Shown here: in pieces, positions 2,682 to 20,770 of the stretch | Numbering within the stretch: position 1 is the stretch's first letter | Layout of the letters: each line of letters begins with the position of its first letter | IMG/VR virus record: IMGVR_UViG_3300028745_000034 | Location: 1 to 23,778 of that record | Source: a virus | Direction: 5' to 3' (one strand) | Length of the DNA stretch: 23,778 nucleotides | Notes under the pieces: model-generated | What the model was told of the DNA's origin: nothing | What the model saw: the letters and a program-made list of their open reading frames with translations, nothing else | Databases searched by the model: none | Position numbers and translations under genes: made by a program

Positions 2682-3029
2682 CTACTTCGCGACGGAGGCC
2701 GCAGGCGCCGGAGCGACGGCGTGCGGGAACTTCACGTCCTCGAGATCGACCTCTGTGCCGTCTGCCCGCACGTATCTCGCGAGGTAGCAGATGGGCGGTG
2801 CTGGAGGCTTATCGGGCGTGGACGGGTAGCAGGCGAAGAGGCCGGTTGCCTCGTGCTGTAGGACCTCGTTGGGGCGACTCTCCGAATACCAGATCGTCCG
2901 GCTCACCCAGATCTGGCCGGCACTATTGGGATGCACCACGGGCGGCGCCCCCTTGATGTCACTCACGACAACGCCACACGCAGAAAGCGCGAGCACTGCA
3001 AACACGGCCACCAGCTTCTCGACCTTCAT
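2682..3029 (-). CDS. Small predicted lipoprotein
   Basis: A 115-residue protein with a lipoprotein signal peptide: MKVEK, a hydrophobic stretch, then lipobox LSAC with the lipid-modified cysteine at 18. The mature part has two further cysteines (FACYP and PICYL), which could form a disulfide. It has no family I recognise. The ATG at 3029 is preceded by a good ribosome binding site (GGGAGG). The IS element's target duplication ends 22 bases upstream of this start. Without the element, the gene would follow the 5934-6260 gene after 52 bp, so it was probably the last gene of a three-gene leftward operon. It may be a lysogenic conversion (moron) gene acting at the host envelope; that is inference. 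Confidence 0.7.
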   Translation of the reverse strand: MKVEKLVAVFAVLALSACGVVVSDIKGAPPVVHPNSAGQIWVSRTIWYSESRPNEVLQHEATGLFACYPSTPDKPPAPPICYLARYVRADGTEVDLEDVKFPHAVAPAPAASVAK

Positions 3030-3051
3030 CAACCCTCCCCTTCGCCGCCGC

Positions 3052-3059
3052 CGCAGCGG
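3052..3059. repeat. Left 8-bp target site duplication
   Basis: CGCAGCGG lies immediately outside the left inverted repeat and is repeated exactly at 5904-5911 outside the right one. A ninth base does not match. Eight to nine bases is the usual IS1-family target duplication, so the element moved in as one unit. Confidence 0.85.
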
Positions 3060-3081
3060 GGTAGTGGCTCAATTTGAAATC
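3060..3081 (+). repeat. Left terminal inverted repeat
   Basis: Twenty-two bases starting GGTAGTGGCTCAATTTGA, identical to the reverse complement of 5882-5903. The inner sequences diverge at once after the 22nd base. IS1-family ends also begin GGT. Confidence 0.88.
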
Positions 3082-3123
3082 CAGCCGGTGGCGGGTCGGC
3101 CCCGGTTCTGCTAGAGCGAGACT

Positions 3124-3300
3124 ATGGCGAACCGCCCCAAGCGGCCACGAGATCCAGCGCAGCTTGCGAAGTTCGTGGTGGACATGGCCACCGGCCAGAT
3201 CCCGCCCGACAAAGCCCCCGAAGCGCCTGCGCGTCGCACGAAGGCACCGCTGCCAAAGGCTCGGAAGACGCTGGCCGCGCCGCTCAAAAAGCAGGCTTGA
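3124..3300 (+). CDS. Small basic protein of a conserved proteobacterial family
   Basis: A 58-residue protein rich in Lys, Arg, Pro and Ala. Its first half, RPRDPAQLAKFVVDMATGQ, matches a widespread family of small proteins whose members start like RPRDxxQLAKxIVDIATG, some annotated histone-like. The second half is basic and disordered (KAPLPKARKTLAAPLKKQA). Members of this family usually continue into a GGxARAxxLSxxxRxxIA motif; this one lacks it. It begins 42 bases inside the left inverted repeat and its last 17 bases overlap the nuclease gene tail-to-tail. It may be element cargo or bind nucleic acid; the function is unknown. The ribosome binding site is weak. Confidence 0.62.
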   Translation: MANRPKRPRDPAQLAKFVVDMATGQIPPDKAPEAPARRTKAPLPKARKTLAAPLKKQA

Positions 3301-3895
3301 GGTAGAGCCAACTCTTGCGGAGTTTCGCGATCCCGCTGGCGTCCAGCGTGGCGGTTCTGGTCCCTCGCGGGCCTCTGTCATTCTTTCGGAAGTCGGACTC
3401 AACAACCTGTCCGAGGTAGACCTCCGTGAACGCGAGCGGTCGTCTCTGGGTTGCTGGTTCGGTCTGGTTGTCCACGGCGTAGACGAATACGCACATCCAC
3501 TGCTCACGCGCGCCGTGCGAATCCACAGCACCGCCTCCCTTTCGCGTGGTCTTGATTTCAACGCCTTCCGTCCCCGCCTTTACTGAATCTTTCGCGTAGA
3601 CGCCCTGGACGACCAGATCGGGGTGCCCATTGAAGTAGCGGTTCTGCACAAGCGTTCTGGAATGCTTGGCGACGCTCGCAGTCAGCATGTCGGACAGCAG
3701 GCCGGACATGATTGCCGGTCTGATCATGTCGTCGAGGCGCTGCAGCCCCTTCGAGGTGAGTAGCTTGTTCACGTCGAAAAAGAAGTCGTAAACATCCTGC
3801 ATCGCTAACTGGAAATCAGCGACTCGCAGCTCGTGCGGCAATGGCAGATTTTGATTGAACGCCGTCGGGTCTGGCTGCTGGCGAACGAGGGGCAT
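3284..3895 (-). CDS. Putative type II restriction endonuclease, PD-(D/E)XK fold
   Basis: A 203-residue protein with a PD-(D/E)XK signature: GHPDLVVQG (Asp93) followed 20 residues later by GVEIKTT (Glu113, Lys115). A basic Gly-rich loop (RKGGGAVDSHGAR) comes next. The nuclease would cut unmethylated DNA at the site protected by the adjacent methyltransferase. I chose the ATG at 3895, where the conserved-looking part begins (MPLVRQQPDPTAF); an ATG at 3961 would add 22 residues. With the 3895 start it overlaps the methyltransferase by 80 bp, so the two are translated from one message and coupled. The recognition site and exact family are unknown. It could instead be a non-specific nuclease, but context favours restriction. 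Confidence 0.72.
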   Translation of the reverse strand: MPLVRQQPDPTAFNQNLPLPHELRVADFQLAMQDVYDFFFDVNKLLTSKGLQRLDDMIRPAIMSGLLSDMLTASVAKHSRTLVQNRYFNGHPDLVVQGVYAKDSVKAGTEGVEIKTTRKGGGAVDSHGAREQWMCVFVYAVDNQTEPATQRRPLAFTEVYLGQVVESDFRKNDRGPRGTRTATLDASGIAKLRKSWLYLKPAF

Positions 3896-4763
3896 GCGCG
3901 AACTCTGATTCCGCAACTTGCAGCCCCGCAAGTTTTTGGATCGCCGCTCTTGCGATCTCACAGTACGTCTCGTCCAGTTCCACGCCGATGCTGTCGTATC
4001 CGACCGCTACAGCTGCCGCGATCGTCGCGCCACCGCCCATGAATGGGTCGAGAACAACGCCCTCCCCAAGCGGGAGCGCGGCGCGCACGATCTGCCGCAT
4101 GAACGCCTGCGGCTTGAGGTTCGGATGTGGCGAAATGGCCCGCTCCTCCGCGCGCGTCGTCGATGACCGGATCACGTCCGCGAACGGCTGCTCTTCGGAG
4201 AGGCGACGCAGCCCGCCCGTCTTCCACTTGCGTAGGTTGTCCTGCACGCGCCCTTGGCAGGGCTTACGGAACAGCCCCCACGGCTCCCATTGCGAGCGCG
4301 GCATGACCGATACGTCTGGGAATTCCTCGTGAGCGTTTTTGGGGCGGTCTCCCCCTCGTAGCGTCTGGACAAGGCGGATGATCTCACCGCGCTTCTCAAA
4401 ACCAGCGGCGATCAACGGCTGGTAGACCAGATGCGATAGCAGCGGATTCCCGGCGATGAACAGGTGTGCCCCGGGAGTCAGCACTCGCAGCAATTCCGTT
4501 GCGAACTTGGCGAAAAACGCACTCAGCGCAACACGCTCAGGATCGGTGAGCACGGTAAAGCGAGGCAGCGGGGCCCGCTGGCAACCGTCGAACGAGGGCG
4601 GGATGCGCCACACACCCCCACGGCCAGAGCGCAGCTTTCGCTTCTCGACTTCAGAGAATTCCTTGAGACCGTAGGGGGGATCAGTGATCGCGGCGTGGAT
4701 GGAGTTCGGCTTGCACGCGCGCATCCAGTCGAGGCAGTCGGCGCGATGAGTCTCGTAGGTCAC
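3816..4763 (-). CDS. Site-specific DNA methyltransferase (beta class, N6-adenine or N4-cytosine)
   Basis: A 315-residue enzyme that transfers a methyl group from S-adenosylmethionine to DNA. The catalytic motif TDPPYG is near the N-terminus (Asp28-Gly32). The SAM-binding motif DPFMGGGAT is near the C-terminus (about 239-247). The order catalytic motif, recognition region, SAM motif defines the beta class of amino-methyltransferases. DPPY suggests adenine methylation, though N4-cytosine is not excluded. I chose the GTG at 4763, which has AGGAG six bases upstream and overlaps the stop of the regulator gene (GTGA). An ATG at 4817 lies inside that gene and is less likely. It protects against the downstream nuclease. 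Confidence 0.86.
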   Translation of the reverse strand: MTYETHRADCLDWMRACKPNSIHAAITDPPYGLKEFSEVEKRKLRSGRGGVWRIPPSFDGCQRAPLPRFTVLTDPERVALSAFFAKFATELLRVLTPGAHLFIAGNPLLSHLVYQPLIAAGFEKRGEIIRLVQTLRGGDRPKNAHEEFPDVSVMPRSQWEPWGLFRKPCQGRVQDNLRKWKTGGLRRLSEEQPFADVIRSSTTRAEERAISPHPNLKPQAFMRQIVRAALPLGEGVVLDPFMGGGATIAAAVAVGYDSIGVELDETYCEIARAAIQKLAGLQVAESEFAHAPRSPAARPDGVQSKSAIAARAASR

Positions 4764-4945
4764 GGCGCGCTCCTTTCTGCGGCGGCCAGCGCCTGCATGC
4801 CGAGCTGGCGTAACCATACACTGACACCCAGACCCAACTTATCGGCGGCGGCGACAAACGCCTGTTTCTGCTCTGAAGTGACCTTTACCGGCACGATTTC
4901 TTCCTTCCGCTCGGACGCCTTCTTTCGATGCCCAGTCTTGGTCAT
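4760..4945 (-). CDS. Ribbon-helix-helix putative regulator of the R-M cassette
   Basis: A 61-residue protein with a basic N-terminus (MTKTGHRKKASERK), a predicted strand EEIVPVKVT, then two helices (SEQKQAFVAAADKLG and VSVWLRQLGMQALAAA). This is the layout of the ribbon-helix-helix (Arc/CopG/MetJ) fold, which dimerises and reads DNA with its strand. It is first in the operon and its stop codon overlaps the methyltransferase start (GTGA). Position suggests it does the job of a controller (C) protein, timing nuclease against methyltransferase. Classical C proteins are helix-turn-helix proteins, so this would be a different class. Its ATG lies only eight bases after a -10 box, so the mRNA is probably leaderless. 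The fold is likely; the role is inferred. Confidence 0.66.
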   Translation of the reverse strand: MTKTGHRKKASERKEEIVPVKVTSEQKQAFVAAADKLGLGVSVWLRQLGMQALAAAERSAP

Positions 4946-5003
4946 GGGTTCATGTTGTACGCCTACGGGATCGCCTAGTCAATAGGCATACGTTAGCGAT
5001 CCA
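4946..5003 (-). promoter_or_regulatory. R-M cassette promoter with overlapping operator
   Basis: On the minus strand TTGACT (4977-4982) and TACAAC (4954-4959) are separated by 17 bp, a good sigma70 layout. Transcription should start within a base or two of the regulator's ATG. On the plus strand GCCTA occurs at 4961-4965 and 4973-4977, and its reverse complement TAGGC at 4983-4987. The last two form an inverted repeat centred on the -35 box. These are plausible half-sites for the ribbon-helix-helix protein, giving self-repression. No clear promoter for the divergent transposase gene was identified here. Confidence 0.58.
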
Positions 5004-5033
5004 ATGTCAGACCCCTCCTGTACGCTGCTCTCT

Positions 5034-5894
5034 ATGAACCGCTTGAGCCGAGCCGACCGAATCGCAGTCATCCGGGCCTTGGTTGAGGGCAACTCCGTGC
5101 GTTCCACCTCGCGCATGACCGACGTGGCGCGGAACACCATCCTCTCGCTGCTCATGGATGTTGGTCGCGCGTGCTGGGACTACCAAGATCGGACGCTGCG
5201 CAACCTCAAACTCAAGCGCGTTCAGGTGGACGAGATCTGGTCGTTCGTCTACGCAAAGCAGAAGAACGTGGCGACCGCGAAGGCCGCGCCCGCGTTCGCT
5301 GGCGACGTGTGGACCTTCACCGCGATCGACGCCGAGACTAAGTTGGTGCCGTGCTGGATGCTCGGCTCGCGTGACCTCGGGACCGCTACCGAGTTCATCC
5401 AAGACCTCGCGGGCCGTATCGCCACTCGCATTCAACTCACCACCGACGGCCACAAGCCCTACGTCAACGCCGTTGAGGATGCCTTCGGCGCGGACGTGGA
5501 CTTCGCCCAGCTCGTGAAGCTCTACGGCGCGGAGCGGCCCGGCGAGGCTCGCTACTCGTGCGCCAACTACGTCTCGTGCCGCAAGGTGGCCGTGACCGGC
5601 AACCCGGACGAGAAGCACATCAGCACGAGCTACGTCGAGCGCCAGAACCTCACGATGCGGATGTCGATGCGGCGCTTCACTCGCTTGACCAACGCATTCT
5701 CGAAGAAGGCAGAGAATCACGCCGCGATGGTTGCGCTCTACTTCATGCACTACAACTTCGCTCGCGTTCACCAGACGCTTCGGGTTACTCCGGCGATGGC
5801 CGCTGGCGTCGCCGATCACGTTTGGGAGGTTGAGGAGATTGTTGCACTCGTGGAAGCTCAAGAGGCCGTCTCGGATGCCCTGATTTCAAATTGA
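5034..5894 (+). CDS. IS1-family DDE transposase
   Basis: A 286-residue transposase read from one uninterrupted frame; it lacks the insA/insB frameshift of classical IS1. The N-terminus has a helix-turn-helix (about 20-45). The DDE acidic triad is visible as VDEIWSF (Asp66), TTDGH (Asp138) and YVERQNLTMRM (Glu202), followed by the IS1-like RRFTRLTNAFSKKAENH segment. It binds the 22-bp ends and moves the element. I chose the ATG at 5034 because relatives begin like MNRL; an ATG at 5004 would add ten residues. Its stop codon lies inside the right inverted repeat, as is common in compact IS elements. The gene appears intact, so the element may still be mobile. Confidence 0.9.
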   Translation: MNRLSRADRIAVIRALVEGNSVRSTSRMTDVARNTILSLLMDVGRACWDYQDRTLRNLKLKRVQVDEIWSFVYAKQKNVATAKAAPAFAGDVWTFTAIDAETKLVPCWMLGSRDLGTATEFIQDLAGRIATRIQLTTDGHKPYVNAVEDAFGADVDFAQLVKLYGAERPGEARYSCANYVSCRKVAVTGNPDEKHISTSYVERQNLTMRMSMRRFTRLTNAFSKKAENHAAMVALYFMHYNFARVHQTLRVTPAMAAGVADHVWEVEEIVALVEAQEAVSDALISN

Positions 5895-5903
5895 GCCACT
5901 ACC
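5882..5903 (-). repeat. Right terminal inverted repeat
   Basis: Reverse complement of the left 22-bp end with no mismatch. It contains the last codons and the stop of the transposase gene (TGA at 5892-5894). Confidence 0.88.
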
Positions 5904-5911
5904 CGCAGCGG
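5904..5911. repeat. Right 8-bp target site duplication
   Basis: CGCAGCGG, identical to 3052-3059, directly outside the right inverted repeat. The pair marks the insertion point. Confidence 0.85.
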
Positions 5912-5933
5912 CGGTTCTTTGTTTGTGTAGCAA

Positions 5934-6260
5934 CTACATCTCGACTTCGGGAGCCCACTCGCATCGACACCAGCCGACGCGCTTGCCGAGTGCAAAGCCG
6001 CACGAGCGCACCGGCAGCGGCATTGATTGGAGCGCCTCCTCAAGTGTGAAGACCTTGCCGCTCAACGACATGCACGTCGGGCAGGAGTCCGCCGTGAGAA
6101 CACTCACTCGTTTCACTGTGCCTATCTCCTGAAGGGCCATCAGCTCGGCGCGATTCGCCTCGATGAGATCCTCGAGGTGTGACTCTCCTCGCTTGAACTT
6201 CGCAAGAGCTCGATCAAACGCCGCCATCTTCGTCTTCTGCCAGTCGGTCATGGGCGGCAT
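5934..6260 (-). CDS. Cys-rich hypothetical protein, zinc-finger-like
   Basis: A 108-residue protein. The first half is helical and charged (MTDWQKTKMAAFDRALAKFK ... IEANRAELMAL). The second half has a cysteine pattern CPTC, then SCGF, then WCRC, with LSGKVFTLEEALQSMPLP between. This C..C / C / C.C layout resembles the C-terminal cysteine region of SPP1 gp7-type minor head proteins, where the cysteines probably bind zinc, but the resemblance is weak. The ATG at 6260 begins one base after the stop of the upstream lipoprotein gene, so the two are co-translated. A shorter start at 6251 is possible. The function is unknown. The IS inserted 22 bases after its stop codon. Confidence 0.62.
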   Translation of the reverse strand: MPPMTDWQKTKMAAFDRALAKFKRGESHLEDLIEANRAELMALQEIGTVKRVSVLTADSCPTCMSLSGKVFTLEEALQSMPLPVRSCGFALGKRVGWCRCEWAPEVEM

Positions 6261-6261
6261 C

Positions 6262-6834
6262 TCACTGCTTCTGTGCCGGCGCGCTGGGCGCAATGGCTGA
6301 CGTGGCTGAGAGGGAGGTAGCCGAAGGCGCCGCGTCTGCGATCGTCAACGACATCGTCGCTCGAGCCGAGGTATCGAACGAGCAGATGTATTGGAACGTG
6401 TATTTTCCCGGTTCCCAGATCTTCGGTAACTCGGTGATCGTAACGTCATATTTTTCGCAATCATTTTCATCGCACACCCCCACGCTGGGGACATCGTCCT
6501 TCAGCATCGTTTGAAGAATTTGCTGGTTGTCCCGCCAGATCGTCAGTTGCCAGCTTCCCGGGTTTGCGAATCCAAATGTGCGACTCGAGAAGTGCGAATG
6601 AACGAGCGGGATAACGCCATCGTCGTGGAGCATTCCAGGCATGCCGCTCGTAGCACAGGTGACGATCTTGGTCGGCAACAGAGCGCCGGCTGCTGCGGTG
6701 GCCTGAACGCACGCACCATCGCGAACACGTAGAGCGCCAGTGTCGACTCGCGCTTCAGAGGGCATCGTTCGCGGCAACAACCCCGCACACGAAACAACCA
6801 GCATCGCCACTATCAACGCGCACGCGTTCCGCAT
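6262..6834 (-). CDS. Predicted lipoprotein
   Basis: A 190-residue protein with a lipoprotein signal peptide: MRNACALIVAMLVV followed by SC, the lipid-modified cysteine being residue 16. The mature part has several cysteines (GACV, VTCA, VCDENDC, YICSF) and a middle region that looks beta-rich (WQLTIWRDNQQILQ, YDVTITELPKIWEPGKYTF), like an Ig-type extracytoplasmic domain. The tail is low-complexity Ala, Ser and Pro. I chose the ATG at 6834 because it is preceded by GGGAGGGG and begins the signal peptide; the frame stays open further upstream. It is probably the first gene of a leftward cargo operon with 5934-6260 and, before the IS arrived, 2682-3029. I do not recognise the family. Confidence 0.72.
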   Translation of the reverse strand: MRNACALIVAMLVVSCAGLLPRTMPSEARVDTGALRVRDGACVQATAAAGALLPTKIVTCATSGMPGMLHDDGVIPLVHSHFSSRTFGFANPGSWQLTIWRDNQQILQTMLKDDVPSVGVCDENDCEKYDVTITELPKIWEPGKYTFQYICSFDTSARATMSLTIADAAPSATSLSATSAIAPSAPAQKQ

Positions 6835-7937: not shown

Positions 7938-8963
7938 ATGGCACTCCAGTTCAAGAAGGCTGCTCGTCAGCAGAAGAAGCTCCGGCTCAACATCGACGGC
8001 ATCAGCGGCAGCGGGAAGACGCTCGGCGCGCTGCGCATCGCGCGCGGCCTGTCGCCCACCGGCCGCATCGCGGTGCTCGATACCGAGAACAACAGCGCGA
8101 GCCTCTACGCCGCGGAGATCGCCGGAGGCTACGAGGTGGCGCCGCTCACGGGCGACATGCGGCCGCGCGAGTTCACGAGCGGCATCCATGACGCGGAGGA
8201 GGCCGGCTTCGACGTCATCATCGTCGACAGCCTCTCGCACGCCTGGCGCGGCACGCTCGAGCTCGTCGACCGCAAGACGGAAGCGAGCCGCTCCAAGAAC
8301 GCATTCAACGAGGGCTGGCGCGCGGCGACGCCCGAGCACAACGCGCTCGTCGACGCGATCTTGAAGAGCAAGGCGCACGTCATCACGACGATGAGAAGCA
8401 AGTCTGAGTACGTGCTCGAGGAGAACGAGAAGGGCCAGAAGGTGCCGCGCAAGATCGGCATGGCGCCGGTCGCGCGCGAGGGCGCCGAGTACGAGTACGA
8501 CGTCTGCCTCACGCTCAACGCCGACCACAAGGCGGTGGTCAGCAAGACGCGCTGCAAGCTCCTCGACGAGCAGGTGATCCCGCTCATCACCGAGCAGCTC
8601 GGCGCGGTGCTGCGTGTCTGGCTGGAGAGCGGCGAGGCCGTGATCGTGTCGACAGCCACGCCGGCATCAGAGGCGGCTCCGGCGACCACGACTACGGCGA
8701 GCCCGTCTGTCCGTTCTGCCGCGGCGCCGGAAGCGACTGCGCCTGCGAGCAAGACTGGGGAGAGTCAGTCGGCGACCGCTGAGCGCGACGCGGTCATCCT
8801 CGCAAAGGAGCTGAGCGCGGCTGACGACAAGCCGGCGCTCGACAAGGTGGTCGACAAGATCGCGGCTGCGGTGAAGAGCGGCAAGGTCGACGCGGCCGAG
8901 CGCAAGCAGCTCCTCGCGCTCTACACGCAGCGAAACAACGCCGTCGCCTCGAGGGCGGCATGA
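7938..8963 (+). CDS. Sak4-like phage AAA ATPase (RecA-fold recombinase)
   Basis: A 341-residue protein. Walker A is GISGSGKT (residues 21-28) and Walker B is FDVIIVDSLSH (Asp97 at its core), with TENNSASLYA and a sensor-like HVITTMRSKSEY region between Walker B and the C-terminus. This is the phage ATP-binding/AAA_24 family that includes Sak4, a short RecA-like protein for single-strand annealing and recombination. The part after about residue 230 is low-complexity Ala, Thr and Ser, then helical. The ATG at 7938 has AGAGG upstream. A nuclease and an SSB-like protein follow, forming a recombination module. Its 3' end overlaps the next gene by ATGA. The role in replication or recombination is inferred from family and context. 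Confidence 0.82.
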   Translation: MALQFKKAARQQKKLRLNIDGISGSGKTLGALRIARGLSPTGRIAVLDTENNSASLYAAEIAGGYEVAPLTGDMRPREFTSGIHDAEEAGFDVIIVDSLSHAWRGTLELVDRKTEASRSKNAFNEGWRAATPEHNALVDAILKSKAHVITTMRSKSEYVLEENEKGQKVPRKIGMAPVAREGAEYEYDVCLTLNADHKAVVSKTRCKLLDEQVIPLITEQLGAVLRVWLESGEAVIVSTATPASEAAPATTTTASPSVRSAAAPEATAPASKTGESQSATAERDAVILAKELSAADDKPALDKVVDKIAAAVKSGKVDAAERKQLLALYTQRNNAVASRAA

Positions 8964-9262
8964 GCACGCGCATTGTCTACTTGGTGTGCGGCCGAACCGG
9001 CGAGTACAGCGACGCCAACGAGTGGCGGGTGCGCGCTTACGAGGACGAAGGCGAAGCAGAGCATTGCGTTAGGCGCTGCACCGAGCTCGCGGCGGCGGTT
9101 TTTGAAGTGCGAGACGGCCAATACGATGACGTCGGCACCCCCGCGCACACTTGGTGGACGAAGGCGCTGGAGGCGGCCAAGTCGGAAGACGACAGCATCC
9201 AGTGTGACTACACGGGCACTACCTACTGGCTCGAGAAGCTGACGCTCCGGAGTGCGCCGTGA
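8960..9262 (+). CDS. Hypothetical phage protein in the recombination operon
   Basis: A 100-residue protein of mixed alpha/beta appearance, starting IVYLVCGRTGEYSDANEWRV. It has no motif I recognise. It overlaps the ATPase gene (ATGA) and the nuclease gene (GTGA), so it is translationally coupled to both. That tight placement suggests a role with them, but no function can be assigned. Confidence 0.7.
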   Translation: MSTRIVYLVCGRTGEYSDANEWRVRAYEDEGEAEHCVRRCTELAAAVFEVRDGQYDDVGTPAHTWWTKALEAAKSEDDSIQCDYTGTTYWLEKLTLRSAP

Positions 9263-10392
9263 GCATCACCTTCTCTAAGCTCGCGCGTCTGCGCGCGTGC
9301 GCGGCGTCTGAGGCGTTGCCGCAGGTGTTCTCGCCGCCGAGCGAGCACGCCGATCGCGGCAACGCAATCCACGCTTACCTCTGCAAGCGGAGCCAGGGCG
9401 CGTTGAAGGCGGACGCGCTCGCGGCTGTGCCGCTCGAGTGGCGTGACCTCTGCGCGGCGCTGCCGGAGGTGTCGCCCGGCACTGCGGAGATGGCGTTCGC
9501 ATGGAACTACGAGACGGGCGCGGTGCGCGTGCTCGGCGAGGACATCGGCCGCGACTACAAGCTCGAGGAGGGCGAGATCGCCGGCACTGCCGACCTGGTC
9601 GGCATCGACTGCAACGCCGCCCGCGCAGAGGTGACCGACTACAAGGCCGGATTCCTCGACGTCGAGCCAGCGCGCACGAACCTGCAGCTCGGCGCGCTGG
9701 CGATGTGCGTGGCGAAGGTCGCGGACGTCTCCGCGGTGCTGGTGCGCATTCGCAAGATCACCGAGTCGGGCGAGTTCATCGACAACGAACACGAGCTAGA
9801 TGCGTTCGACCTGGCCGGCATCGAGTCCGAGCTGCGCGAAATCCTGAAGCACGTCCGCACCGCGCAGCGCATCGTCCGCGCTGGCGGCACGCCCAACGTC
9901 GTCGAGGGCGAGCACTGCCGCTGGTGCCCGGCGAAGCTCGCGTGCCCGGCCAAGGTCAGCGCCCTGGTGCAGCTGCGCACACCTGGCGGCCTCTCGCAGA
10001 AGTTCGAGGCGCTGCTCGGCGAGGCGCCCGCGCAGGCCCTCGCCGCCTATGAGGCGGCAGAGGAGGCGATGAAGACCATCCGCGCGCAGCTCTATGCCTA
10101 CGCGCGCGAGAACCCGATCGCCCTGCCTGACGGCCAGGTGTTCGGCCCCGTCTCGACGACCCGCGAGCAGGTCGACGCGAGCGTCGCATGGCCGGTGCTG
10201 CTTGAGCTGGGCAGCCAGGTCGCGGCGGACGCCATTGAGGCGAAGACGAGCAAGGCCGCGATCGAGCGCGCCATCGCGAAGCACGGGCACGCGGAGCGGA
10301 AGAAGGAGGTGTTCGGTCGCCTGCGCGACGTCGGCGCCTTCCTCTCGAAGACCACCGAAGCAATCACGAAGCACAGGGAGAAGACCAAGTGA
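9259..10392 (+). CDS. Cas4/RecB-like PD-(D/E)XK nuclease with Fe-S cysteines
   Basis: A 377-residue protein starting at a GTG inside a GTGA overlap. The nuclease core is visible as RGNAIHAYL (His), GTADLVGIDC (Asp) and VTDYKAGF (Asp-x-Lys), the RecB/Cas4-type PD-(D/E)XK arrangement. Cys14 (LRACAAS) and CRWCPAKLAC near residue 217 form a C...CxxCxxxxxC pattern, like the iron-sulfur cluster of Cas4 and AddB nucleases. The C-terminal third is helical. The likely role is a DNA-end resecting exonuclease working with the Sak4-like ATPase. It matches the DUF2800-type phage proteins often annotated as PD-(D/E)XK. Family confidence is high; substrate polarity is unknown. Confidence 0.82.
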   Translation: MSITFSKLARLRACAASEALPQVFSPPSEHADRGNAIHAYLCKRSQGALKADALAAVPLEWRDLCAALPEVSPGTAEMAFAWNYETGAVRVLGEDIGRDYKLEEGEIAGTADLVGIDCNAARAEVTDYKAGFLDVEPARTNLQLGALAMCVAKVADVSAVLVRIRKITESGEFIDNEHELDAFDLAGIESELREILKHVRTAQRIVRAGGTPNVVEGEHCRWCPAKLACPAKVSALVQLRTPGGLSQKFEALLGEAPAQALAAYEAAEEAMKTIRAQLYAYARENPIALPDGQVFGPVSTTREQVDASVAWPVLLELGSQVAADAIEAKTSKAAIERAIAKHGHAERKKEVFGRLRDVGAFLSKTTEAITKHREKTK

Positions 10393-10949: not shown

Positions 10950-11291
10950 ATGGCGACTTCCGCCAATAACGACGGCCGCGTCTTTGTCTTCGGCAGCAAT
11001 CTGCAGGGCGCGCACGGCGCTGGCGCGGCGGCATTCGCGCTCGAGCACCGCGGCGCTGTGTACGGCGAGGGCATCGGCCACCACGGCCAGAGCTACGCCA
11101 TTCCCACGATGCACGGGCGCGAGTTCCTTGCCCAGCACGTCGCTATCTTCCTCGACTACGCGCGCGCCAATCCGCAGCTGCGATTCGAGGTCACCAAGAT
11201 CGGCTGCGGCATCGCCGGCTTCACCGAGGCGCAAGTCGCGCCGCTCTTTGCTGACGCTCCCACCAACTGCGATTTGCCCGAGGGCTGGTAA
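10950..11291 (+). CDS. A1S_2505-family phage non-structural protein
   Basis: A 113-residue protein with the family signature VFVFGSNLQGAHGAGAAAFA, followed by GEGIGHHGQSYAIPT and FEVTKIGCGIAGF. These glycine-rich loops recall macro-domain-like nucleotide-binding folds, but no biochemical role is established. The length fits the family. It follows the hairpin terminator, and no strong ribosome binding site is visible. Its stop overlaps the next gene's ATG (TAATG), so the two are coupled. Confidence 0.85.
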   Translation: MATSANNDGRVFVFGSNLQGAHGAGAAAFALEHRGAVYGEGIGHHGQSYAIPTMHGREFLAQHVAIFLDYARANPQLRFEVTKIGCGIAGFTEAQVAPLFADAPTNCDLPEGW

Positions 11292-12052
11292 TGACCACCA
11301 AGACGAAGAAGACCGCCAAGAAGCTCGCTCCGAAGAAGAAGACCACCACAGCGCTTGCGCCCGGGAAGGTGCTCGTGCTCCGCACGTGCGCCGCGGATAT
11401 GTCCGCGCACGGCGGATTCATCTGGCCGAAGAGCGGGCCGATCAGCGCGCCGGACTGGAAGCCGACGAAGGAGTGCGGCGCCGGCCTGCACGGCCTGCTC
11501 TGGGGCGAGGGCAACGGGGATGTGTTGAGCTGGGCTGTGGACGCGGCCTGGCTGGTGGTCGAGGTGGAGAAGGACAAGATCATCGACCTCGATGGCAAGG
11601 TGAAGTTCCCCTCGTGCGTGGTCGTCCATTGCGGCAACCAGAAGAGCGCGACGGAATATCTCGCTGCTCACGGTGCTGAGGGCCGCGCGATCACCGGCGG
11701 CACGGCGACGGCGGGCGACCGCGGCACGGCGACGGCGGGCGACGGCGGCACGGCGACGGCGGGCTACCGCGGCACCGCGACGGCGGGCCCCCGCGGCACG
11801 GCGACGGCGGGCGACGGCGGCACGGCGACGGCGGGCGAAGGCGGCACGGCGACGGCGGGCGACCGCGGCACGGCGACGGCGGGCGACGGCGGCACGGCGA
11901 CGGCGGGCGACGGCGGATCTCTGCTCCTCAAGTGGTGGGACGGCAGCACCGGCCGCTACCGCGCCTGCCTGGGAGAGGTCGGCATCGACGGAATCAAGGC
12001 GAACGTGAAGTACCGCGTCGAGAGCGGCAAGCTCGTCGAGGTGAAGCCGTGA
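11291..12052 (+). CDS. DUF7666-type protein with nine octapeptide repeats
   Basis: A 253-residue protein. A Lys/Thr-rich start (TTKTKKTAKKLAPKKKTTTA) leads into a domain at about 25-125 (LRTCAADMSAHGGFIWP ... CGAGLHGLLWGEG ... VVVHCGNQ) that resembles DUF7666. Residues 137-208 are nine perfect-length copies of GTATAGxx (DR, DG, YR, PR, DG, EG, DR, DG, DG). The 8-residue period and the TAG core resemble ice-nucleation-protein repeats, which fold as a beta-solenoid. A C-terminal segment (LLLKWWDGSTGRYRACLGEV) closes it. The function is unknown; an extended rod or binding surface is a reasonable guess. It starts at the TAATG overlap and ends in a GTGA overlap with the next gene. Confidence 0.75.
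   Translation: MTTKTKKTAKKLAPKKKTTTALAPGKVLVLRTCAADMSAHGGFIWPKSGPISAPDWKPTKECGAGLHGLLWGEGNGDVLSWAVDAAWLVVEVEKDKIIDLDGKVKFPSCVVVHCGNQKSATEYLAAHGAEGRAITGGTATAGDRGTATAGDGGTATAGYRGTATAGPRGTATAGDGGTATAGEGGTATAGDRGTATAGDGGTATAGDGGSLLLKWWDGSTGRYRACLGEVGIDGIKANVKYRVESGKLVEVKP
11699..11914 (+). repeat. 24-bp tandem repeat, nine units
   Basis: Nine in-frame 24-bp units of the type GGCACGGCGACGGCGGGCGA plus two variable codon positions. All differences between copies fall in the last two codons of the unit, except one synonymous change in unit four. Near-identity at DNA level points to recent slippage or recombination, so copy number should vary between relatives. Confidence 0.92.
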
Positions 12053-12593: not shown

Positions 12594-13051
12594 CCTCGGC
12601 TGCCGCCAAGCGCGTGCACGAGCCGGGGACCTGCCGGCTGCGACAGGCCGAGGGTCTCTGCCGTGCGTGCGCGGCCGCGTTCCTCGGCGGCTGCCCGACT
12701 TGGTTTGACGCACAGGTGCGTCCGACGTTGCCCATCGTGCGCGTCGGGGGCAAGGTGACGTTCTTGATCGACGATCTGCGCGCCTGGCAGCGCGCCCATC
12801 GCGAGGTTCCAGAGTGCGTCACCCCGAGGGAATCAAGCTCCGTCGCAAGCCCGGCAAGCGCTTCTGGTACGCCCGCGCCACGCTCCCAAGCGGCAGACGA
12901 TGGGAAGCCTCGACGGGCATCCCGCTGGAAGGAGATCGCGGCGCAGCTGCGCGACGAGCTGCAGCGCTCTACATCGACGCCAGCCAAGCCGGCGGGCGAG
13001 CTGGTGCAGTTCCCGCGTCGGTCTCCGAGCAGCTCGAGCTCGTCGACCTGA
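12590..13051 (+). CDS. Putative excisionase (MerR/HTH_17-like), 3' half overlapping int
   Basis: A frame of 153 residues beginning at a GTG inside a GTGA overlap. Residues about 30-72 (LGGCPTWFDAQVRPTLPIVR, then VGGKVTFLIDDLRAWQRAHR) look like a short winged-helix excisionase or HTH_17 domain, with the typical variant of R-hydrophobic-G-G-x-V before DLRAW. Position directly before int supports a recombination directionality factor. From about residue 76 the frame overlaps the integrase gene for 238 bp and becomes low-complexity, ending in a run of serines. That part is probably constrained mainly by int. The end should be treated as uncertain. Confidence 0.55.
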   Translation: MTSAAAKRVHEPGTCRLRQAEGLCRACAAAFLGGCPTWFDAQVRPTLPIVRVGGKVTFLIDDLRAWQRAHREVPECVTPRESSSVASPASASGTPAPRSQAADDGKPRRASRWKEIAAQLRDELQRSTSTPAKPAGELVQFPRRSPSSSSSST

Positions 13052-13953
13052 TCGCGCAGTACCTCGAGCACGAAGAAGAGCTCTATCGCGGCCACGATGG
13101 CAGGCACCACGGCCGTATCAAGACGGACCTGATGCGCTACATCGCTCCTCGCTGGAGGCGGGCTGAGGAGATCACCACCGATGCCTGGCTCGAGGCGCGC
13201 GGCGCGCTGCACAAGGCGGCCGGCGGTCCGCTTGGCGCGCGATCGATCGCGCACCTGGCGAACACGTTGCGACATTTCCTGCGCTGGGCCCGCGAGCGCG
13301 GCGTGGTGCAGACCGTGCCCGAGATCGAATCACCGAAGAGCAAGGACCAGCGCTCGGAGCAGCGCGGCCGCGCGGCGATGGATGCGGGGCAGCGCGATCG
13401 CTTCCTGCGCGCGCTCACGTCAATGAAGGAGCACCGAGCCTCCCGCGTATATCGAGCGCTCTTCTATTCGTTGTTGCGCAAGGGCGAGCTCGAGGCGCTC
13501 ACGCTGCGCTGGGTGGATTGGAAAGAGCAAGTGATCCGTCTGCCGGCAGAGCACGCGAAGAGCGGCGAACAGGAGGAGATCGACCTGCACCCCGAGGTCG
13601 CGCGCGCGATCCGCGGCGAGCTGAAAGCCCGCGGGAAGCTGCAACCGGACGATCCTGTCTTCGGCCGGTTCGACTACCACCAGGCCAACACGCCCGACCT
13701 GCAGGGCGGCATCTTCGGCCGGGCGTGCCTCCGCGCGAAGATCGTCAAGTTGCGCTCCGACGGCACCGTCGACTTCGACGGCCTGACCGCCCACCACGTC
13801 ACGCGGCACAGCTCGGCGACGATCGCCGCCGGCAAGCGCGGCACGACGCTCGAGGAGCTGATGGCCATGGCCCGGTGGCGCAGCCCGGACATGGCCGCCC
13901 GCTACCTGCACCCGACGGTCAAGGCCGGCCGGCGTGCCTCGAGGAGACTCTGA
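12814..13953 (+). CDS. int: Tyrosine recombinase (phage integrase)
   Basis: A 379-residue integrase that catalyses attP x attB recombination. The N-terminus (about 1-60, FWYARATLPSGRRWEASTG) resembles an arm-binding domain. A core-binding helical domain covers about 75-190 and the catalytic domain 195-379. Catalytic residues visible are Arg222 (LLRKGELEAL), a candidate Lys in HAKSGEQEE, His328 and Arg331 (HVTRHSSAT), Trp355 at the His/Trp position (ARWRSPDM) and the nucleophile Tyr364 (ARYLHP). The GTG start at 12814 has GAGG seven bases upstream. The gene reads toward the tRNA-like att core 55 bp downstream, as lambda int reads toward attP. Confidence 0.9.
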   Translation: MRHPEGIKLRRKPGKRFWYARATLPSGRRWEASTGIPLEGDRGAAARRAAALYIDASQAGGRAGAVPASVSEQLELVDLIAQYLEHEEELYRGHDGRHHGRIKTDLMRYIAPRWRRAEEITTDAWLEARGALHKAAGGPLGARSIAHLANTLRHFLRWARERGVVQTVPEIESPKSKDQRSEQRGRAAMDAGQRDRFLRALTSMKEHRASRVYRALFYSLLRKGELEALTLRWVDWKEQVIRLPAEHAKSGEQEEIDLHPEVARAIRGELKARGKLQPDDPVFGRFDYHQANTPDLQGGIFGRACLRAKIVKLRSDGTVDFDGLTAHHVTRHSSATIAAGKRGTTLEELMAMARWRSPDMAARYLHPTVKAGRRASRRL

Positions 13954-15777: not shown

Positions 15778-16836
15778 CTAGTGGAAGGTGCGGACGGTGT
15801 AAGTGCCGCTCGTGCCGGTGTTCGCGCTCGCGCTCGAATCGCACCAGCGGATCTTGACCGCGTTCGCCGCGCTCACGTAGCAAGTCGCGCTGATCGCCGT
15901 TCCGGCTCCGGTTGATGGGACGCCAACGACACACGCATCACCGGCCACAACGCCAGTCACGGTGATCGCGGCAGAGTCGGAACAGTTATTACCAGGGATG
16001 GCTCCCGGGGTTTCGCTCGCTGACGCCATATAGCAGGTGCCGATTGCTGTTCCGCTGGCGCCAATAACCAGGCCATTCGTCGTGAACGATCCCACGGTGG
16101 CCCCGCGCTGAGGCTGGAATACAATCGACGAGCCAGTAGAGCTCCCCTCGAGGTACATAGTGGCCGTGGAAGAGAAAACCGTTTCTGAACCATCCCACTG
16201 AATCAATCCGTTTGAAGACGGGCCCATACTGAGGGTTCCCGTGCTTCCATTGGAGAGGGTTATCTGGTTTCCATTGATCGTCAGCGGCGTATTGAACGTC
16301 GTTAGCGTGTTGGTGAATAGTGTTTGGCCGGTCGTCGACCCCTGCGTCGGCCGCACAAAGACCGTGCTGGTTCCTCCCGGGCCGCCGCTCACAATCATGT
16401 AGGCCCCCGAGCCAATCGAGGACAGGTTGAGTCCCGACCCGTCCCACCACAGCTGGCCGCCGCTCGTGCTCCCAAGATAGAGGCCCGTCGTGCTCGGCAA
16501 CGTGAATGCCCCACTGAGCGTCGTCCCGCTGTTCGTCATTCGCAGGCCTATGCTGCTCGAGGAATGTGGCGCAAGAACAAACGCGCCTGTCCCGATGCCG
16601 CCGGAGTTGAATATGATCCCGCTGTCGTTCGCTTGCACGATCGGGTTGTAGTTGAGCGAGCCGAGCGCAGCGAATAGACATGCCTGATATGTCGACGATC
16701 CCAGGTATACGCCGCAGAGCGCAGGCGTCGATCCGGCAGCGCTTTGTTTTAGCTGCGTCCCTCCGGCGATATCGGCAGCGCTAACAGAAAGAGAGACACA
16801 GAGAATCGCGGCAACGATTGATTTATACCGATGCAT
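15778..16836 (-). CDS. Tail appendage/fibre-like protein with an apparent signal peptide
   Basis: A 352-residue protein rich in Gly, Ser and Thr with short beta repeats (GLYLGSTSGGQLWWDG, TMYLEGSSTGSSIVF, LTINGNQITLSNGS). These suggest a trimeric beta-structured fibre. The C-terminus (GVVAGDACVVGVPSTGAG ... VKIRWCDSSAS ... TVRTFH) resembles the end domain of many phage tail fibres. The N-terminus, MHRYKSIVAAILCVSLSVSA, looks like a Sec signal peptide, which is unusual for a virion protein. It overlaps the tail-tip gene by 14 bp and has GGTGGTGAT upstream of its ATG. It may be a receptor-binding appendage or an exported protein; the fibre reading is the more likely. Confidence 0.66.
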   Translation of the reverse strand: MHRYKSIVAAILCVSLSVSAADIAGGTQLKQSAAGSTPALCGVYLGSSTYQACLFAALGSLNYNPIVQANDSGIIFNSGGIGTGAFVLAPHSSSSIGLRMTNSGTTLSGAFTLPSTTGLYLGSTSGGQLWWDGSGLNLSSIGSGAYMIVSGGPGGTSTVFVRPTQGSTTGQTLFTNTLTTFNTPLTINGNQITLSNGSTGTLSMGPSSNGLIQWDGSETVFSSTATMYLEGSSTGSSIVFQPQRGATVGSFTTNGLVIGASGTAIGTCYMASASETPGAIPGNNCSDSAAITVTGVVAGDACVVGVPSTGAGTAISATCYVSAANAVKIRWCDSSASANTGTSGTYTVRTFH

Positions 16837-19800
16837 AGATCACCACCACCTGTTCGCCCGAGGGGATATAATTCGCTCCGAAGACGTAGGCCCCGGTCCC
16901 GGTGCTCATTGGATCAATCTGATAGTTGGTCGTCGGCTGTAGCACGCCCCCGACGTAGACCGATGGAACCGTCCCGGCCGCGGGCGGGTTGGCCGTCGTA
17001 TAGGTGTCGTTCGTGTTGTAGGTCGTCGAGACGCTCGCGGTGATGTTCTCGCTGAGTTGTCCCGCTAGCGCGCCAGCGGTCGCAACCTCCGACACCTGCA
17101 GCGTGCTGATATCCATCACGGCCGCACCCGTGAAATTGAATGCGACAAACATACGCATATAACAAGTGCCGGCATATGCTGGTGAGGGCGTCGCGCCGCT
17201 CGCGGAGCCCGGCGTCGTGCCCGTCCCGAACAGATTGCTATAATAGGCGTTGAGGTTCACCCATCCGCTTCCACCGGCATAGCCAGGATAAACCGCGCAA
17301 TGCTGCACGGCCGGATTGCTGCCGTTGGTGGTGACGCCGTTCACGTCGTATTGGGTGACGCCGTCATTTCCTACCGCGACGAATCCGACGTACATGCTGC
17401 GCGCGGTAGCGCCGCTGCGCTGCTTCACGGCAGCCTGGATCCGATAGACCTTCGTGGGGTCATACGGGATCAGCGCCCGGTGGACCATCATCACCTGGCC
17501 AGCCGAGCACTCGAGCATATGGCCGCCGACGACCGGCGTCGCGCTCTTCCCGCTACCGTGCGAGTCGGTGTTCTGCTTTATCGAGAGGATGCCCGGACCG
17601 TTAACCGGGAAATCCCATTGCGTGGCGTCGTAGGTGTCGAACGAGATGCGCAGCGGCAGAGACTCGATGGCGGGCAGGAGCTGCACGCCCGCGGCGCCGG
17701 GTCCCGCCATCGTGTACGTGAAGACCGGGCAGAGAGAGAGCGCCATCGACTGCGTGCGCGCGAGGTTGTAGCTGGCCAGCTTGAAATAGACGACGTTGCC
17801 GGCCGCCACGCGGCTCGAGTCGATCGGAATCTTGAGGACGTTCTGGTCGATGATCGTGAACTGCGCGCCCACTGCATGGCTGCCGACCGGCGTCCCGTAG
17901 AGTCCACGTCGGTGATTGGTCAGAGTGTATTGATTGGTCCCGGACAGGGTGGATCCCTGATAGGCGATCAACTCGGCTGCGGCGCCCGTATCCACGAGCG
18001 CCATCGAGGAGAACGCATCTCGGTCGGCTGCCTGCACAGGGGAGATCGTTCCGTTCGAGGATGCGACGCTGACAATCAGTGAGTTCGTGGTGTCGAGCGG
18101 AGAGCCGGCAGGGAATCCCGAGCTGGCGATCACGCCCGTCGTCGCGGCGCCGATATCTCCCTGATATGTGTAATTGGTGCCGTCGAAGCTCATATAAACC
18201 TGAGCCCCGCCCCAGTCTTTTCCGTTGCTAGCGACGGACACCCAGATCTCGGGCGTGATCGCCTGGGGCCCAACCGGCTTCGAGTTGTGGACCGGATAGG
18301 GTCCAGTCCAGCCGCCGACGCCGAACCCGCCAGGCGGCCTGCCCGCGCCCGTTGCGGGCAGCGGAGGCATATAGAAGATCGGCGTGCTCGGAGGAAACGG
18401 CACTGTGTTGACGACGTGGCCACCGCCCTGTGCGGAGCCGGTGCCGTAGGCGACCGAGGACGCGCGCCCGATCGCTGCGTCCTCCGCGTCGACATCGAAC
18501 TCGCCGTGCTCGTCTTCCTCGATCGAGAGGATGCGCACGACCTGGTTGACCAACCCGACGGTGGAGTCGCTGATCTGCAGCAGGTCGAACGGCTCGAGCA
18601 GGCAGAACTGCTGCGGCAGCTTGAACTTGTAGCTGTTGCGGACGTAGACGCTCCGCTGCGCCATCATCCGAGATAGCACTTGGGCGATCGCCTGCTTCGT
18701 GATGCACTTGAGCGACTTCGCGCCCTTCTTGCGCACGATGCCGCCCGAGGCATCGACGTCAGGCTGCTCGAAGTCCTGCACGGTGCTGATCTGATATTGC
18801 GAGTTCTGGTCCGGCGTCTGGGAGTCAACGAACTCGATCGGGCAGCAGTTGTATGTCTCCTGCGCGCTGATGCGAGTGAACTCGATCATGTCTTTGCCGT
18901 CGCTCGCCAACATGTTGTCTTCGTTGAGCGAGTATTGCGCAACGGTATATGCCGTATAGCTACCGATATTCGCGTCGCCGACGGGATAGATATTCAGGCG
19001 CCCCTGAGACCAGATGCATTCGGCGTTGCAGGCGTCGAGGATCCAGTCGATGTGCTCCAGAGCGCTCTTCTGCTCGTCGAAGATCGGCGACAACAGAATG
19101 CCCGCCTGCGCGCAGTAGGTCTGCAGCCCCGTCGCGGTCGTCCCATCGGGACCATAGAGCGCGTTCACCGCAGAGGCGGGGAAGCCCATGCCGTACTGCG
19201 TGTTGGTAAGCATGTCGACGAGGATCAGGGCGGGGTTGACATCTCCCGCGGTGCCGTTCGTGAGCAGCCCATTGAACTCGATGGAGAAGTTCTTCATCGC
19301 ATTCGAGGTGCCCAGCGAGAGCGACTTCGACGCGAGCACCGCCGTGCCGCTATATCCGAGTGAATACTTCCCGATATCGGTGCTGATGTAATACGAGATC
19401 GCGACCGGCGCGCCGCACTGGCCGGCGCCCATCAATACGCTGGCAACGTTTGCGGAGGTACTGAGAGCATAGGTGCCCGCGCCGCCCGTTCCTGTGCCGA
19501 GAGCGCTGATCCATGTGTTCGCAGGAACACCACTCCCGCCGAGGTTCACGATCTGCATTCCGACCGCGAGCACGCCGCTCGACACCGAAGAGACCGTGAG
19601 CGTGTTGCCGGCGCCGCCGCTGCCGTTGCTGATTGTCCCAGTGAAAGTCGCTCCGTTGAATGTGTAGACGCCGGCTGTCGCGTTGTAATCCGCGCCGCCG
19701 CTCATCGTCTCGCTGGAGACGCTTCCTCCGAGGTTCAGGTTGTAGGTGCCAGTTCCGCCGGTGCCGGTCCCCAGTGAAGTGATCTGCGTGTTCCCGCCGG

Positions 19801-20770
19801 TGAAGTTGTTGCCCTCATCAAAGAGCGTCATCCCGACAGCGATCGTGCCGCGCAGAACCGAAGTGACCGTGAGCACTGTTCCGCTGACCGAGCCAACCCA
19901 CGTCGCACCAGAGAGGGCAGCGATGGGACCGGAGACGAGGTATTTTGGCGCGTTCGGGAATACCGTCGCCTCGATCATGCTGCGCACCGGCGAGGCAACG
20001 TTCGCATCCTGTGTCCACGACTGATCTGTGCCGTTCCCTCCTGGCGCGGTAACGCTCAGTGTGAACGGCCCAGCTGCGGGGACGGCCGCGTTGACGCATC
20101 GATAGTTCTGGATGTTGCTCGGAACCGACGCGACCACAACCGCGAGCGCGCCAGACGTGGGCGCCGTGGTGAGCGCGACCGCGAATGTGAGCACGTCATT
20201 GCCGCCGCTCGCGGCCATCCCCATGATCGCGCGGCTCTCGCCGTCCTGGAAATAGATGGTCCCGAACAGATAGCCCGTCGTGTTGTGCGCGAGTCCCGAT
20301 ACCGTGACCGTGGTGGTGGTGGGCGTGCCCGTGATGGTCACGCTGATGGGCGATGTCGCGCCGCCCGTGTTCGTCCAGTCCGCCGGCGGGCTCTGCGGAC
20401 GAGAGCCAGGCAGAAACTCGAACGGCTTCGAGCCGTCGCTCGAGTTGCCGTCGATGTTCGTGGTCGTCGTCGGGAAGACGTCCTTATCGACCCACATGCG
20501 ACCGGTCGAGCACCCGCTGAGTCCCTCGGCGATGGCGATCCAGACGCCCTGATAGTAGCCGCTACCAGCGCTGCCGCCGCCCTTGCCACCACCATTCCCC
20601 GCGCCGCTGATCCACAGCTCGGGCGGCATGCAGATGATCGACGCGGCGATCCGGTTGGTGCCGTAAACGACGGGCAAGCACTTTCCGTATGAGGCTGTTT
20701 CTACCGGCGGCAGCTGATCGTTGTTCAGACCGCCAATGCTATGACCACCCGTCGTCGTTGCGCCGGCCAT
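16823..20770 (-). CDS. Tail-tip / central fibre protein (host specificity, gpJ-like)
   Basis: A 1,315-residue protein, the largest here. The N-terminus (LPVVYGTNRIAASIICMPPE) is typical of phage tail-tip proteins of the gpJ/GTA type. A central region (about 480-770: GLLTNGTAGDVNPALILVDM, HIDWILDACNAECIWSQGRL, FCLLEPFDLLQISDSTVG) is the hub domain. The C-terminus is Gly/Ser/Thr-rich. Two insertions stand out: a domain at about 144-229 like one in the DUF2163 protein, and two repeats at about 288-449 ending in LGTGTGG(T/A)GTY. I chose the ATG at 20770, which overlaps the NlpC/P60 stop (TAATG). It would contact the host receptor and open the tail. Confidence 0.82.
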   Translation of the reverse strand: MAGATTTGGHSIGGLNNDQLPPVETASYGKCLPVVYGTNRIAASIICMPPELWISGAGNGGGKGGGSAGSGYYQGVWIAIAEGLSGCSTGRMWVDKDVFPTTTTNIDGNSSDGSKPFEFLPGSRPQSPPADWTNTGGATSPISVTITGTPTTTTVTVSGLAHNTTGYLFGTIYFQDGESRAIMGMAASGGNDVLTFAVALTTAPTSGALAVVVASVPSNIQNYRCVNAAVPAAGPFTLSVTAPGGNGTDQSWTQDANVASPVRSMIEATVFPNAPKYLVSGPIAALSGATWVGSVSGTVLTVTSVLRGTIAVGMTLFDEGNNFTGGNTQITSLGTGTGGTGTYNLNLGGSVSSETMSGGADYNATAGVYTFNGATFTGTISNGSGGAGNTLTVSSVSSGVLAVGMQIVNLGGSGVPANTWISALGTGTGGAGTYALSTSANVASVLMGAGQCGAPVAISYYISTDIGKYSLGYSGTAVLASKSLSLGTSNAMKNFSIEFNGLLTNGTAGDVNPALILVDMLTNTQYGMGFPASAVNALYGPDGTTATGLQTYCAQAGILLSPIFDEQKSALEHIDWILDACNAECIWSQGRLNIYPVGDANIGSYTAYTVAQYSLNEDNMLASDGKDMIEFTRISAQETYNCCPIEFVDSQTPDQNSQYQISTVQDFEQPDVDASGGIVRKKGAKSLKCITKQAIAQVLSRMMAQRSVYVRNSYKFKLPQQFCLLEPFDLLQISDSTVGLVNQVVRILSIEEDEHGEFDVDAEDAAIGRASSVAYGTGSAQGGGHVVNTVPFPPSTPIFYMPPLPATGAGRPPGGFGVGGWTGPYPVHNSKPVGPQAITPEIWVSVASNGKDWGGAQVYMSFDGTNYTYQGDIGAATTGVIASSGFPAGSPLDTTNSLIVSVASSNGTISPVQAADRDAFSSMALVDTGAAAELIAYQGSTLSGTNQYTLTNHRRGLYGTPVGSHAVGAQFTIIDQNVLKIPIDSSRVAAGNVVYFKLASYNLARTQSMALSLCPVFTYTMAGPGAAGVQLLPAIESLPLRISFDTYDATQWDFPVNGPGILSIKQNTDSHGSGKSATPVVGGHMLECSAGQVMMVHRALIPYDPTKVYRIQAAVKQRSGATARSMYVGFVAVGNDGVTQYDVNGVTTNGSNPAVQHCAVYPGYAGGSGWVNLNAYYSNLFGTGTTPGSASGATPSPAYAGTCYMRMFVAFNFTGAAVMDISTLQVSEVATAGALAGQLSENITASVSTTYNTNDTYTTANPPAAGTVPSVYVGGVLQPTTNYQIDPMSTGTGAYVFGANYIPSGEQVVVIYASV

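Follow-up and report, generated by a model that had tools for sequence, protein, structure and literature searches.

The 23,778-bp virus record IMGVR_UViG_3300028745_000034 of IMG/VR, the whole of which is called the window here, contains at positions 3060-5903 an insertion sequence (IS) of 2,844 bp inserted in a temperate-phage record. We consider, at a probability of about 0.85, that this element is a transporter IS of an IS1-like clade, and that it carries a restriction-modification (R-M) operon made of a ribbon-helix-helix (RHH) gene, a DNA methyltransferase gene (M) and a restriction endonuclease gene (R). Passenger genes unrelated to transposition lie between the two ends of a single IS, which is what defines such elements. 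Features are listed in Table 1.

The element and its operon

The two ends (GGTAGTGGCTCAATTTGAAATC, 22 bp each) are inverted repeats with 0 mismatches; shuffled sequence averages 0.00 matches, and no match with up to three mismatches is expected by chance. A third end, allowing up to three mismatches, was not found in the window. Among the perfect inverted repeats that the region's listing contains, this pair is the longest; one repeat of greater length there is only 72% complementary, and all other exact inverted pairs with separate arms in the window are 16 bp long or less. The same 8 bp, CGCAGCGG, stand on both flanks. Residues D66, D138 and E202 of the transposase are invariant in 24 of 24 aligned sequences, and the Pfam domain DDE_Tnp_IS1 (PF03400) is recognized at 31.4 bits for a cut-off of 24.1. 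The IS1595/ISXO2-like domain expected of transposases of the IS1595 family is absent among the seven Pfam families listed for this protein at E up to 1.

The RHH, M and R genes overlap one another on the minus strand, opposite to the transposase gene and reading away from it. The GTG start of M shares GTGA with the RHH stop, just downstream of AAAGGAG; the longest M open reading frame (ORF) extends to 4817. The ATG of R at 3895 was picked from its relatives and lies 80 bp inside M, which is the extent of the M-R overlap, and the longest R ORF extends to 3961. M matches Pfam N6_N4_Mtase (4.3e-17) and the PADLOC type II methyltransferase PDLC03215 (3.5e-114), and places DPPY ahead of DPFMGGG, the beta order; TDPPYG is invariant and DPFxGxG conserved in eight aligned sequences, the window and seven relatives that are 59-72% identical to it. 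As for R, which is full length and 62-69% identical to six aligned relatives, the catalytic residues HPD93 ... E113-x-K115 are invariant in all seven sequences. Its structure model, of moderate confidence (pLDDT, the predicted local distance difference test, 69.6), aligned best with NaeI, then with BglI, EcoRV and DpnI, and the first 19 fold rows were all restriction endonucleases. A second model, led by the relative L025, was dropped for its lower pLDDT (58.6), and a search of the R sequence against PDB gave no match. The RHH gene matches a NikA-like family at 26.1 bits, under the cut-off of 27, and no relative of it was found by tblastn in the other loci compared. No repeats were reported in the divergent region at the settings used.

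Among the genes of the window are those for an integrase (12814-13953), for a Sak4/AAA-type protein (7938-8963) and for an exonuclease (9259-10392). Tail and baseplate-type genes (16823-23161) and the end of a gene for a tape-measure protein (23158-23757) are also present, and we therefore read the window as belonging to a temperate phage or prophage. The element is inserted just upstream of a minus-strand gene at 2682-3032, read as a lipoprotein, and, when the flanks are joined, just past the stop of a minus-strand ORF at 5934-6293. Neither an empty site nor a homologous phage with the same site was found in the public phages and viral contigs searched: neither one neighbouring ORF nor the left flank had a match in phage collections, the ORF to the right of the element had none in a scan of viral contigs, and a scan of viral contigs with the phage gene to its left returned three loci (L249-L251), similar in that gene only.

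An earlier note on this DNA had proposed a self-contained mobile R-M unit in a phage, and the ends, the duplication and the intact genes all support this. Its 22-bp ends and 8-bp duplication are borne out to the base, and the intact DDE transposase, its assignment to the IS1 type, the beta-class methyltransferase, the PD-(D/E)XK nuclease, the completeness of the R-M set and the phage context agree with the evidence above. Its gene list is right for four genes; a fifth ORF, that of the left end, had been overlooked. The ORF that it called ribbon-helix-helix is present, with a family match that is weak.

Table 1. Features of the element and its flanks, in window coordinates
Feature	Position	Strand	Remarks
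Left target site duplication	3052..3059	.	8 bp, CGCAGCGG
Left terminal inverted repeat	3060..3081	+	22 bp, perfect, GGTAGTGGCTCAATTTGAAATC
Small left-end ORF	3124..3300	+	58 aa; profile hit E=7.4e-8, alignment
PD-(D/E)XK restriction endonuclease (R)	3284..3895	-	Relatives, catalytic residues, fold alignments
Beta-class N6/N4 DNA methyltransferase (M)	3816..4763	-	Pfam, PADLOC, motif order
RHH/NikA-like protein, putative operon regulator	4760..4945	-	61 aa; Pfam match below curated cut-off
IS1-type DDE transposase	5034..5894	+	ORF extendable upstream to 5004; likely start ATG 5034
Right terminal inverted repeat	5882..5903	-	22 bp, perfect; overlaps 3' end of transposase gene
Right target site duplication	5904..5911	.	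8 bp, CGCAGCGG

A clade of cargo-bearing elements

Scanning bacterial and archaeal genomes with the window transposase gave 22 relatives. Profile searches (E <= 1e-60, seeds included) within the class or phylum of four seed records gave matches in 28 of the 393 genomes of the class to which the Dehalococcoidia record belongs, in 46 of 396 for the phylum of the Acidobacteria record, in 30 of 385 for the class of the Rubritepida record and in 5 of 369 for that of the Proteobacteria record; the 93 regions taken are our own selection among these matches. Ends like GGTAGTGnnTCAnTTTGAA delimit 87 of 121 transposase-bearing loci, the window included. Contig ends, truncated copies and divergent ends are among the likely reasons why 34 are not delimited, and L012, delimited by hand (3,919 bp), stands outside the 87.

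An 8-9-bp duplication with at most one mismatch flanks 78 of the 87 delimited elements (71 exact of 8 bp, one exact of 9 bp, six with one mismatch). End pairs were chosen on a score that included the duplication, and flank pairings were therefore compared as a control: 7-8 of 8 bases are shared by the two flanks of one element in 77 of 86 cases, and by flanks of different elements in 12 of 7,310 pairings. The target-site preference is weakly palindromic, the 71 exact 8-bp targets favouring C/G then A/G at their start and T, T/C, G at their end. One element (L020:8506-11017) is bordered by 12-nt flanks that are perfect inverse complements (CGCCTCGCTATT and AATAGCGAGGCG), not a direct duplication.

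The delimited elements measure 1,968-4,925 bp, none consists of the transposase only (0/87), and besides the window's own, 85 of 86 hold a further ORF of at least 100 aa, L203 being the exception. The statement of the earlier note that IS1-family elements normally carry just a transposase thus fails for this clade, all 87 delimited members exceeding 1.9 kb. Cargo was labelled with profiles built in this analysis on mechanically called ORFs, and the class 'other' lumps unlike cargo. Ten elements were labelled as PD-lambda-2_B-like Xre-peptidase, ten as P63C, seven as RosmerTA-like, two as methyltransferase-Mrr fusion and one as the window R-M, leaving 57 of 87 other or unlabelled. After 8 of 107 long cargo ORFs had been left out as likely antisense, the remaining 99 matched 115 PADLOC families, with PD-Lambda-2_B in 10 ORFs and RmrA in up to 8. 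The pair RmrA and RmrT was confirmed in L235 (2e-180 and 2.2e-88) and L022 (4.9e-143 and 4.5e-53). In L017 the B component of PD-lambda-2 was recognized (1.3e-45) and the genes standing where A and C would be had no match; its order of HigB-like gene, Xre-peptidase and third gene fits the description given in excerpts of PMC9519451. Anti-phage activity is reported for members of RosmerTA (PMC10440598) and PD-lambda-2 (PMC9519451). In two elements (L083:2257-3600 and L172:6881-8167), a plus-strand methyltransferase is apparently fused to an Mrr-type nuclease domain, making a candidate one-protein R-M as cargo.

The earlier note had suggested searching for copies that bound the same cassette or other cargo, and only the second kind was encountered. 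Among the other 86 delimited elements the window nuclease and RHH protein have no match, and the methyltransferase has one weak partial match (L083). The note had also held that copies never including the cassette would speak against a mobile unit; all 86 indeed lack it, but nearly all hold other genes in that place. On a transposase tree of 86 elements (L022, with a truncated transposase, was left out), cargo labels change 28 times for a shuffled mean of 27.8. Labels being indistinguishable from shuffled ones, cargo appears to be exchanged among backbones. The same is visible directly in L224 and L228, whose matches are confined to 1,140 bp at the transposase end (91% identical), 90 bp at the left tip (87%) and 203 bp close to that tip (80%); L169 and L171 likewise have similar backbones and different middles.

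A family of small plus-strand ORFs lies within 500 nt of the left end in 62 of the 87 delimited elements. Nine aligned relatives of the window's left-end ORF share a C-terminal GG..GGxARA ... RW block; the ORF of the window is shortened, its C-terminal KGG half being degenerate or missing. No Pfam match better than E 0.05 was obtained with ten aligned left-end proteins. Three P63C-type cargo proteins (L009:352-1461, L012:8778-9830 and L015:8796-9878) begin with a KGG...RW block resembling the one in the left-end ORF, which suggests a module shared by the two.

Carriage in virus records is not unique to the window element, since other viral contigs hold ends, transposase matches and duplications. 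The degenerate 22-bp end was found in 21 stretches of viral contigs, eight of which have a tblastn transposase match (E <= 1e-5) above 50% identity and one more a match at 43%; L273 and L276, both from viral contigs, are delimited with exact 8-bp duplications. Another viral contig (L267:8881-10719) contains a 1.84-kb element with perfect 22-bp ends and a 9-bp duplication (GATTGAGCG), which holds a left-end KGG ORF and an ORF resembling by eye a GNAT toxin, with no transposase match; the phage gene of the window has a partial relative (47% over 62 aa) at positions 11291-12052 of this contig. The 321-kb Brevundimonas phage vB_BpoS-Gurke (L042) has at 174773-175666 an unannotated transposase relative, 32% identical; a motif that matches the right end follows some 1.2 kb further downstream.

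Relatives of R and M occur together in eight other loci, at 57-72% identity. They are convergent in seven (L025, L027, L028, L035, L036, L037 and L257), and in the eighth (L256:4001-5923) R precedes M on one strand, about 475 bp apart. No IS ends bounding the pair were found in these eight loci, the sole end-like site being a single one with three mismatches in L025. Three of the eight pairs lie on plasmids: the Klebsiella ColRNAI plasmid (L035), Gordonia pGRS1 (L036) and Rhizobium pRspN1341a (L037). Where aligned, they are 66-67% identical to the window pair for R and 59-62% for M, and they differ from it by their convergent genes and by IS ends not being found. On the Klebsiella plasmid (4,938 bp), the nuclease, 62-67% identical and annotated as hypothetical, stands beside the methyltransferase; the two are probably a type II R-M left unnamed in the record.

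Weighing of alternatives and proposed mechanism

Several observations weigh against a transporter IS with a working R-M operon. The transposase scores 55.8 bits with the IS1 equivalog model NF033558, its best NCBIfam match (E 5.4e-15), under the cut-off of 100. The R model is weak around the catalytic residues, its best fold alignment, that with NaeI, reaches a Z of just 7.9, and Foldseek alone gave no significant match with it; no sigma-70-like promoter was found in 3000-6000. ORFs of 169, 88 and 69 aa cross the junction of the reconstructed empty site, so that the placement of the insertion between genes hinges on the choice of starts. A second copy with the window R-M cassette was not found, and movement of this exact unit is therefore argued from its own ends and duplication. 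As to the clade, PADLOC names in the cargo of relatives rest on homology only, and 99 ORFs taken outside the elements also matched 39 PADLOC families, none of them in more than one ORF, with Shedu, DrmC and Cas3c among the 25 families shown.

The order of the two genes also bears on the history of the unit. M precedes R in the window, unlike the convergent or R-then-M arrangements of all eight other loci, and the pair has therefore been rearranged. The IS could then have arrived with other cargo and have received the R-M genes later, by recombination inside the phage, in which case the unit would never have moved whole; the seeming exchange of cargo among backbones, and a left-end ORF that is degenerate where it meets R, agree with this as well. 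We nevertheless regard such a late entry as unlikely, arrival with cargo being simpler for a clade in which 87 of 87 elements exceed 1.9 kb and 72 have exact duplications. Less probable still is that the cargo joins a methyltransferase to a partner that does not restrict, and would serve the phage in counter-restriction. Many phages carry lone methyltransferases, and L029 and L030 (the latter with a stop in its frame) have a methyltransferase match and no R match in the stretch examined; R is, however, full length in the window, close to six of six aligned relatives, and retains its catalytic residues. That an R-M system sits by chance beside a plain IS deserves hardly any credence: R-M pairs of the same family do exist without IS in plasmids and viral contigs, but here both genes are enclosed by perfect ends and, outside these, by the duplication, and no third end exists in the window.

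For a transporter IS with R-M cargo, the transposase would act on the 22-bp ends and insert the whole 2.84-kb unit, yielding the 8-bp duplication, and the RHH-M-R operon would move as its cargo. The position of M ahead of R, in overlapping genes, may ensure protection before cutting in a new host, and the RHH protein may regulate the operon. A type II R-M could stabilize both IS and phage by killing cells that lose it, and could restrict competing phages; a benefit to lysogens and phage is what we infer from this. In the clade at large, the slot beside the transposase would receive different genes from copy to copy, often addiction- or defence-like modules, and cargo might perhaps be swapped by recombination in the shared ends and transposase. 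Loss of R-M or toxin-antitoxin modules can kill the cell, an established idea for R-M (compare PMC3031569). Such killing could unite much of the labelled cargo, and would favour a small IS being retained; cargo of the P63C type has no obvious place in this scheme.

More tentatively, and with less than even confidence, we propose an unrecognized, phylum-crossing clade of compact IS1-like transposons specialized in carrying one addiction or defence module each, with frequent exchange of cargo and with phages among its vehicles. The module slot would lie between the conserved left-end protein and the transposase, and would accept R-M, RosmerTA, PD-lambda-2, methyltransferase-Mrr and others; the left-end protein could have a role in transposition or in cargo exchange. 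The odds of this proposal are lowered slightly by the matches of the control ORFs to defence families and by the unlabelled cargo of 57 of the 87 elements.

Relation to known systems

If these proposals hold, one of the simplest types of bacterial transposon also serves as a carrier of individual modules for defence or addiction, which would give R-M and toxin-antitoxin systems a concrete route of spread among chromosomes, plasmids and phages. The delimited cargo boundaries also provide a place to seek new defence genes, 57 of 87 elements having cargo outside the labelled classes. In a literature search of titles and abstract starts, with subscription papers mostly outside its scope, we recognized no description of R-M cargo in an IS1-family element; nor did the search, which did not cover ISfinder, turn up a clade of IS1 type whose members regularly carry exchangeable, defence-like genes and recurrently have a left-end ORF.

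Canonical IS1 ends begin with GGT, and members of the family are about 0.8 kb long, with a single ORF and duplications of about 8-9 bp. The clade shares with them the Pfam IS1 DDE domain, 8- to 9-bp duplications and ends beginning with GGT; it differs by elements of 2-5 kb and by a window transposase below the NCBIfam IS1 equivalog cut-off. Transporter ISs were reportedly described by Siguier, Gagnevin and Chandler in 2009, for the IS1595 family. Common to these and to the present clade is a single IS with passenger genes between its ends; unlike them, our clade has an IS1-type transposase, a recurrent left-end ORF, room for cargo in every delimited element sampled, and 20 of 87 elements labelled R-M, methyltransferase-Mrr, RosmerTA-like or PD-lambda-2_B-like. 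An IS with passenger genes is in itself a known kind of element, according to excerpts of two papers (PMC9330008, PMC3129680).

For the PaeR7I R-M system, the abstract of PMC3031569 reports movement aided by IS, proposes a partnership between the two, and describes a plasmid that entered the chromosome, in most cases at IS1 or IS5 copies already resident there. The R-M of the window, by contrast, is cargo within one IS. Tn7-like transposons are larger and have multi-gene transposition machinery. They carry varied defence cargo, as excerpts of PMC8649781 state, and in this they resemble the present clade, in which, by contrast, a single transposase and a small number of genes fit into 2-5 kb.

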